From NCBI RefSeq assembly GCF_964275005.1, contig NC_092705.1:4589825-4653824 (forward strand): a stretch of 64,000 nt of DNA, given 5' to 3'. Shown one piece after another: positions 14,101 through 17,100 of this stretch. The stretch's first letter is position 1; every line of letters starts with the position of its first letter. The translations under genes and the position numbers were made by a program. The stretch comes from Diadema setosum (Eukaryota > Echinodermata > Echinoidea > Diadematoida > Diadematidae). Under the pieces are notes generated by a model, which worked only from the letters and a program-made list of their open reading frames with translations, did not search any database and was not told the origin of the DNA.

Positions 14101-17100
14101 CACGACCGCGCCGAGCCTGGATCCTGTGACGAGCTCATGGGACATCGAGGTCACGACGACGTCGGCTGGAGATACCTTCAGTGCCATCGGGGTTGACCAG
14201 CCATCCGATATCACCTCCACGTCGGGTCTCGACCAGGGCTATGGCATGGAAGGGAGGCCGTACTCCGGCGACGTCTTCTCGCATATCTCATACTTCGACG
14301 CTTCGGAGAGCAGCAACACCAATGAACGTGATGGAATCCTTGAAGGGACACCCGCGGACAGCACGGCGGAGCCCTCCACCAACAGATCGTCCAGCATGCA
14401 GGCCATGCAGGGCTCGTCCAGCGGGATCGAGCTGTGGGCGGGCAGCCAGGCCGACTCCGTACCTTGGGTGACCAATGAGCCGCCGTCGGAGTCCGCTCCG
14501 GCCAACAGCCCCGCCGCCGCCATACCGTCCTGGAAGTCCTGCGCCATCTGTCTGGAGGAGCTTCCCCCACACCAGCTTCTCACACACGCTCCGTGCGGCG
14601 GCGTGCTCTGTGCAATCTGTATGGAGGTAATTTTGCTTGGTCCGATCGCACACTTATCTTTACCATGGCAAATTGGCAAAAATCTTGTCCCTTTTTAGCT
14701 CACCTGAGCCAAAGGCTCAAGTGAGCTATTGCGATTGTCCTTCGTCCGGCGTCCGCCGTGCGTCGTCCGTCATGCGTAAACTTTTTACATTTTCATCGTC
14801 TTCTTGAAAACCCCAAGACCAATTTTCATCAAACTTGGCAGGTAGCATCCCTAGGGGGTTAGGAACTCAATTTGTTAAAATGGGCACCAAACCCCAAAAA
14901 TTAAGGAATCTGTAAAAATCTTCTTCTCTAGAACCAGAAGTGATAGAGCTAAGTTAATACTATAGGTTAGTACATTGATGACTGTAGTTTCAAGTTTGAT
15001 GACTGTAGTTTCAAGTTTGTTCATGGCAGAATCATGGGTGCCCCCCCCCCCCTTGGGACCCAGGGGAAGGGGGTGGGGAGGGGTCCTAATAGGGCCTAAA
15101 TTATACATTTTCATCTTCTTCTTGAGAACCCCATGATCCATTTTCACCAAACTTGGCAGGTAGCATCCTTAGGGGGTTAGGATCTCAATTTGTTAAAATG
15201 GGCACCATGCCCCACCCAGGGGGCCCCCAGGGGGGCCCAAACCCCCCCCCCCCCCAAAATGAAGGAATCTTTAAAAATCTTCTCTAGAATCAGAAGTTAA
15301 AGAGCTAAGATAATACTATGAGTGAGTACATTAATGACTGTAGTTTCAAGTTTGTTCATAGCAGATCCAGGGGTGCCGCTCTTGGGGGCAGGGGGGGGGG
15401 GGGGGGGGGGAGAATGGTAAGGTCCAAATGGGGGCCTGAATTGTACATTTTCATCTTCTTCCTGAAAACCTCATGATGGATTTTCGTCAAACTTGGCAGG
15501 TAGCATCCCTAGGGGGTCAGGATCTCAATTTATCAAAATGGGCACCATGCCCCACCCAGTGGGCCCATGAGGCATTCGTTTCAGTTTACTTCCATATGAT
15601 GATTTACTCTGGTAATGTGTGTGTATGTAATCTGCCAGTCATTGTCAAAGTCATGTTTTGTTAATTACTGTAATCACTTCCACTCCTTTGTTTTCACCAC
15701 CACAGAGGGCGGTCAAGCATTATGGCGACCAAGCTGTCAGCTGCCCGGTAAGTGTGAAGGCCATGTCAAAAAGCTTGAAAGGGGCAAAGCGTGTATGAGC
15801 ACTCCAGCATGATATAACAATTGTAGCATAGCCAACCACAAGAATCTGGAGGTCAGTGATGAAGTAGAACAGAAATTTCCAATATGTTGGCGATGGCTTC
15901 CCAAAAATGACGTGGATCACTTCACAATTCTCCCTTGGGTTTGTACAGAATAATATGATTAAAACTATGCTTTTGTTGATGATTTAGCAACTTGAAACCT
16001 CTTTGCCCCGGAAAGTCATCGTTACTGGGTCATTTCATAAAGACTATGATGATTTGATGTGAAGGATACAAAGTATTGTCATCAATTTCATGTCGAAAAA
16101 GGAAATTAAGTGAAGATTTGTGTATACTTCATTGGGAGACTTGAAATGACATCATCACTTCTGCAAATTTGAGTATGTGGTTATGACCATTATCATAGAT
16201 TTGTGACAACATGGAAAATAACTTAAATTCCTAAAATTTTCTATTTTAAGTCAGATTTTGATGAATCCTCTCCTGTTCTGTTTGATTTTGCTCTATTCAT
16301 CAAGGGCAAATTGTCCACGGTGTGGAATTACTCTTTTAATTGATAGTGCTGACTGTGAGCAGTGCCATGTGATTGAAGACTTTTCATGTGAAATAGAAGA
16401 AATGTTGTGTATCTTAACTTGTATTGACACAGCTTTTTTTTTATTCTTATGTCCCCATCAGGTATGTCGGCAAGAGATTGATCCGATGACCGACTACGTT
16501 GCTATGGCGGCGGGAGCATCGGCGCCCAACATGATGAAGAGGGTCTTACTTCTCTCCGTCACTTTCAGAAATGATTTGGAGGAAGACGGTGTGATAAAGG
16601 TAAACAATTGGAAAAAAGGGTGATGTCATTAAACGCTGGGATTTTTATCAGTGAACTGTGATGCCATATCTTCCATGTGAATTTAAATGATGAATAGCTG
16701 GCAAGTTAATTTCAGCTGAGCAGTAACATGGAAATTTCTTGTATATTTGATTGTTATGGCTGGCACAATGAAAACAGTGATAAAAACAACTGGTGAATAA
16801 AAAATGTGTATGCAAGGAAGCGTGATCACAGATATTGGTACACTGTAGATGGCTGTTATGCAATGATGTGTTGGAAAGAAATGACTTTGTTGTGATTCAG
16901 TTACAGTTTGCCCATGCATTTCTTCTAATATCTAACAGTATGTTTTGTCTCATTGCCAACAAATGATGTACATTTAAATCTCATGTGAATATGCAAAAGT
17001 CACATTGTACTGTACTTTGTTTATATGCAAATGTCATATTGTATTCTTTCATCAGAAATGAAATGAAATGAAAAGTCCTTTGACTTACAGGTAATAGAGT

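Follow-up and report, generated by a model that had tools for sequence, protein, structure and literature searches.

Gene content of the locus

The window, by which we mean the whole 64,000-nucleotide stretch of the Diadema setosum genome analysed here (contig NC_092705.1, positions 4,589,825 to 4,653,824), contains on its forward strand a gene predicted to encode a ubiquitin-specific protease (USP) whose two catalytic halves are separated by a long insert carrying a RING-like segment. The gene model was built by hand: all frames were read, and exons were joined with edges chosen by hand. It comprises 15 exons at 8196-21843 (+) and encodes 1291 residues, with GT-AG borders at 14 of 14 introns and consistent phases. 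Exon edges score weakly at both ends of exon 3 (-0.7 each) and at the acceptor of exon 11 (-1.7). The 5′ end of the gene is uncertain because the start methionine is a choice, exon 1 has low GC content at third codon positions (GC3), and an open frame with an acceptor-like site lies upstream. No other copy of the USP gene was found in the window.

8196-8244 (+): exon 1, as modelled, start methionine chosen; GC3 0.19
8844-9106 (+): exon 2, Cys box NMGNTCFM with catalytic Cys34; Pfam UCH
9890-10339 (+): exon 3, HDGQEF box, then onset of an acidic, Ser-rich low-complexity insert
11058-11858 (+): exon 4, low-complexity insert, then catalytic-fold sequence
12572-12665 (+): exon 5, USP zinc ribbon, first CxxC (CAVC, residues 524-527)
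13179-13360 (+): exon 6, onset of the insert separating the catalytic halves, at the position of UBL2 in USP4/11/15
13883-14626 (+): exon 7, remainder of the putative ubiquitin-like (UBL) part, Ser/Thr/Asp-rich linker and first part of the RING-like segment; donor gtaatt
14540-14620 (+): RING region of exon 7, with ligands C1, C2, C3, C5 and C6, and Gly853 at the His4 position
15706-15747 (+): exon 8, 42 nt, phase 0, 14 residues; ligand C7
16462-16599 (+): exon 9, beginning VCRQEID; ligand C8 and Arg878 (linchpin position), then back toward the catalytic fold
17692-17820 (+): exon 10, SDLFGHP segment
18465-18694 (+): exon 11, additional CxxC pair (CSRC-x5-CRGC) and beginning of the second catalytic half; weak acceptor score
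19118-19234 (+): exon 12, second CxxC of the ribbon (CPKC, residues 1052-1055) and LKRF box
19970-20118 (+): exon 13, second catalytic half
20904-21047 (+): exon 14, His box NAGHYT (His1135) and Asn1152/Asp1153
21500-21843 (+): exon 15, low-complexity C-terminal tail and stop

Several other features occupy the window. A LINE-type retroelement lies upstream of the USP gene at 4378-7486 (+), where frame 4378-5112 encodes an endonuclease domain (PF03372, 1.1e-7) and frame 5069-7486 a reverse transcriptase (PF00078, 1.1e-39). Downstream of the gene, 23168-23445 looks like a foldback or MITE-type element, having arms of 115 nt that are 90% complementary and 48 nt apart. A frame at 29063-29374 (+) with a weak, below-cut-off match to the SCAN domain (E 0.018) is possibly a gag-like retroelement remnant. 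Scattered frames at 44247-54857 (-) carry DEAH-helicase-like motifs and are presumably of the DHX type; a scan of three of the pieces produced a weak DEAD match (E 0.033) for one and no match for the other two.

A USP catalytic domain split by a long insert

By sequence, the protein is a C19/USP deubiquitinase. The Pfam UCH model (PF00443) matches with an E-value of 1.2e-57 over two stretches that cover the Cys and His boxes, and the catalytic positions Cys34, His1135 and Asn1152, in line with the intact Cys, His and Asn of the original prediction, are in place and align with those of USP15, USP4 and USP11. The CxxC pairs at residues 524-527 and 1052-1055 we take to be the usual USP zinc ribbon. 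A search of PDB sequences with a 561-residue query, from which the low-complexity insert, the linker and RING-like segment, and the C-terminal tail were omitted, returned 102 matches, the best seven of which are USP11, USP15 or USP4 chains (269 to 251 bits). Bit scores reach 269 for USP11, 261 for USP15 and 258 for USP4 vs 205 for USP8, and the alignment flanks the insert on both sides. Among solved structures, USP11, USP15 and USP4 are thus the closest by sequence, although the subfamily could still differ, since neither USP19 nor USP32 is among the best 60 of the 102 matches.

In USP4, USP11 and USP15 the catalytic domain is likewise split, into D1 and D2, by a long insert consisting of UBL2 and an IDR (PMC12718135; papers are cited here from excerpts of their text, and statements about them apply to those excerpts). 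The excerpted text of that paper mentions no RING in this insert. Their N-terminal DUSP-UBL was not found here in a crude motif scan of 1-8200 (+), in which three of four patterns had no match and the loosest gave six that resemble chance hits.

The insert spans residues ~553 to ~1010. Its first part occupies the UBL2 position, and it is on position that the label of putative UBL is based: Pfam gave one sub-threshold match, to USP7_C2 (E 0.03, 14.5 vs 29.4 bits), and no UBL match was found in the PDB to E 10. The linker that leads from this part to the RING-like segment contains 35 Ser, 15 Thr and 16 Asp among 175 residues.

A RING-like segment within the insert

The RING-like segment comprises residues 833-877 and is encoded jointly by exons 7, 8 and 9, all of phase 0. 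Seven of eight zinc ligands are present with RING spacing (C833, C836, C851, C856, C859, C874 and C877). RINGs are normally a feature of E3 ligases, the enzymes that attach ubiquitin. The original prediction had described a RING-spaced module at 14540-16480 between the USP catalytic halves, joined over phase-0 exons that include 15706-15747 and 16462-16599, and its coordinates, reading frame and phase-0 joins are borne out. It had further placed the module inside the catalytic fold; the segment does lie between the two halves, but in the insert, outside the folded core.

Comparison with profile libraries, one of the checks named with that prediction, gave a divided answer. Of the 16 Pfam families listed for an isolated 63-aa piece, four score above their cut-off, namely zf-RING_2 (33.4 vs 27.3), zf-RING_11 (30.4 vs 27), zf-C3HC4_3 (28.7 vs 27) and zf-C3HC4 (22.8 vs 21), but in the full-length protein all four RING models listed fall under the cut-off (best 25.6 vs 27.3). 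A phmmer search of the PDB with the same piece gave 72 matches to E 1. The top match, to a tandem two-RING RNF4 chain (1.7e-7), sums two copies at ~17.5 bits each, and the best single-RING matches are modest (RNF144A 0.00039, then RNF4 0.00095). NCBIfam yielded a single match, far under its cut-off. Taken at the level of sequence, the RING-like match is real and not a product of chance.

Two other identities for the finger were considered and rejected, as neither zf-MYND nor any B-box model is among the 19 Pfam families listed to E 1. Elsewhere in the window, no single-frame match to the canonical RING pattern with His4 was found.

A 42-nt exon completes the RING-like segment

Since one ligand depends on the very short exon 8, candidate exons between exons 7 and 9 were ranked on splice signals alone, using generic weights and blind to the RING pattern. 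Among 88 open phase-0 AG..GT candidates in 14627-16461, exon 8 ranks first with a score of 12.5, and the best candidate that does not overlap it reaches 2.9; five of the 88 encode a CxxC. Exon 8 has a GC content of 0.62 and, over its 14 codons, a GC3 of 0.71, vs a GC content of 0.38 for the intron.

The RING score depends on this exon. With exon 8 included, the zf-RING_2 score is 33.4; it is 20.0 with the exon skipped, 19.2 when a stretch at 16255-16368 is used instead, and 19.3 with exon 7 alone, and in these three controls none of the listed RING models reaches its cut-off. The substitute, an open Cys-rich stretch on the forward strand of the same intron (CPRCG...CEQC), has a splice score of 2.0 and was rejected as the exon.

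We consider it very improbable that the RING results from wrongly joined exons, with exon 8 or exon 9 belonging elsewhere or exon 8 being no exon. The hand-chosen edges and the presence of the further Cys-rich stretch leave some room for such an error, yet exon 8 stands at the head of the 88 candidates with its high GC3, the alternatives tried lose RING score, and every phase fits. Exon 8, first by splice signals, is the exon that completes the RING.

Because exon 8 is 42 nt long and of phase 0, skipping it would preserve the frame, delete ligand C7 and spare the protease. Splicing could in this way turn the module off.

Intron 7, between the RING-encoding exons, carries at 14774-15566 three copies of a 135-nt unit together with related shorter repeats. 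Two copies share 80% and 90% identity with the reference copy, and the spacings are 318 and 340.

A missing zinc ligand and retained contact positions

The fourth ligand of C3HC4 RINGs is the His in C-x-H. In the present protein, CGG stands where the alignment with RNF4 has CGH, so that Gly853 occupies the His4 position and the full C3HC4 RING originally proposed does not hold. With Gly853 at the place of ligand 4, the second zinc site is left with three canonical ligands; by the usual cross-brace, we assume this to be the E2-distal site. Changing Gly853 to His in silico raises the scores of zf-RING_2 from 33.4 to 37.8, of zf-C3HC4 from 22.8 to 30.1 and of zf-RING_UBOX from 20.2 to 30.7. Loss of His4 therefore lowers the RING score, but a profile match by itself does not show that loss. 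As a speculation, His848, three residues before C851, might replace the missing ligand.

Other positions typical of RINGs are retained. P875, the proline of the CPxC motif, is kept. I835, before C2, stands at the E2-contact position and R878, after C8, at that of the linchpin; an E2-contact hydrophobic residue before C2 and a basic linchpin after C8 are the criteria given in excerpts of the E3-ome paper (PMC13061254). Retention of both residues speaks against full decay of the RING, although E2-contact residues can survive by descent without function.

These observations bear on whether the protein might be a true fusion of deubiquitinase and E3 ligase, in which the RING would activate E2~ubiquitin and the USP would trim the product, making a chain-editing or self-limiting enzyme. 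We regard this as unlikely. The isoleucine at the E2-contact position and the arginine at the linchpin position (criteria of PMC13061254) are in its favour, as is the rank of an E3, RNF4, as top PDB match, and a one-zinc relative of the RING can be active: the UBR4 hemiRING, as excerpted from PMC10873205, keeps its E2-proximal zinc site, has none at the distal site, and is nevertheless an E2-binding, functional E3. Activity may likewise be kept by RINGs whose zinc coordination is altered (dRINGs; PMC13061254). The present module resembles both in being a RING relative with altered zinc coordination that may retain E2 binding or E3 activity. Given the site assignment that we assume, Gly853 falls in the distal zinc site, the one that the hemiRING lacks. 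In UBR4, however, hydrogen bonds replace that site, there is no functional linchpin, and the domain relies on the UZI subdomain, an extra element not seen here (PMC10873205). Substitution of Gly for His4 is a further point against a ligase, and the B-box within the USP domain of CYLD was without E3 activity with 16 E2s (PMC13061254).

A specific version of such an enzyme would be a one-gene chain editor, in which the RING, flexibly tethered between the USP halves, would discharge E2~ubiquitin onto substrates or chains, the active site of the same protein would trim these, and skipping of exon 8 would disable the ligase with the protease intact. We think this quite unlikely.

Alternatively, the segment could be a degenerate RING that persists solely as a structural, interaction or dimerisation module and does not bind E2, comparable to the CYLD B-box and the USP19 MYND. 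Loss of ligand 4 would fit this, and zinc modules have precedents in USP catalytic domains (PMC5584213, PMC13349892), but the E2-contact and linchpin residues are not eroded and no zf-MYND or B-box profile is among the listed matches. We hold this explanation, too, to be unlikely.

Discussion

We favour, at a rough probability of 0.55, a USP4/11/15-like deubiquitinase whose insert bears, on a tether, a RING-derived module that docks an E2, an E2~ubiquitin or another partner. The module would hang on a Ser/Thr/Asp-rich tether of ~175 residues within the insert that splits the catalytic fold, and would fold with its first zinc site intact and its second weakened. It would bring an E2, a ubiquitin-loaded E2 or a partner protein beside the deubiquitinase active site, and docking would set which chains or substrates the enzyme meets; ligase activity, if any, would be weak or conditional. 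Points for such docking are the consistent exon model, the UCH match and the USP residues, the closeness to USP11, USP15 and USP4 on both sides of the insert, the RING match obtained with the isolated piece, the first rank of exon 8, the seven ligands present, I835 with R878, E2 binding by the UBR4 hemiRING in spite of its missing distal zinc site (PMC10873205), and the CYLD B-box as an interaction module within a USP domain (PMC5584213). Points against it are Gly853, full-length RING scores under the cut-off, modest single-RING PDB matches and some poor exon edges.

Deubiquitinase and ubiquitin-ligase functions are combined in one protein in A20/TNFAIP3, which has an OTU domain and A20 zinc fingers and is not known to contain a USP or RING domain. 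The MYND finger of USP19 we take to sit at the same place of the insert as the RING-like module here. Excerpts on USP19 describe a catalytic domain that harbours a UBL and a zinc finger (PMC13349892), comparable to the putative UBL and the RING-like module here; USP19 differs in that its finger is a MYND, not a RING, and Pfam gave no CS-domain match here. CYLD also has a small zinc-binding module inserted in its USP domain, in its case a B-box and not a RING, which serves in self-association and cytoplasmic retention and, in the excerpted text, has no obvious effect on deubiquitinase activity (PMC5584213); its lack of E3 activity is noted above.

These precedents narrow the novelty that the original prediction had inferred. 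Zinc modules in USP catalytic domains were already known in CYLD (B-box; PMC5584213) and USP19 (UBL and MYND; PMC13349892), according to excerpts of those papers, but the modules named there are not RINGs. Among the matches listed for literature on USP/RING or DUB/E3 combinations (titles and starts of abstracts), none describes a USP whose catalytic domain contains a RING. Judged from sequence, what seems new here is the type of zinc module in a USP catalytic insert, a RING that lacks one ligand. Eukaryote databases may already contain fusions of this sort that have escaped notice. A DUB survey covering 14 animal genomes leaves some DUB clades without assignment (PMC4774998); its main text, as excerpted, contains none of the words ‘RING’, ‘MYND’ or ‘zinc’, and since it presents domains as drawings in figures, a USP+RING architecture is neither documented nor ruled out by it. 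Searches for relatives gave no confirmed case in viral contigs (350-aa query, 4 stretches matching the pattern) or in prokaryotic contigs (102-aa query, 101 matching the pattern); as these collections are viral and prokaryotic, the result is expected for an animal gene and says nothing about animals.

With a RING-derived module at this place, one polypeptide would carry a deubiquitinase active site and, next to it, a contact surface of the E2 type. Should the module bind E2, the protein would be a natural model in which the writing of ubiquitin is coupled to its erasing, and a template for linking both activities; should it not, the protein would show the decay of a RING into a docking module. 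Because His4 is missing and exon 8 is in frame, both options are directly testable.
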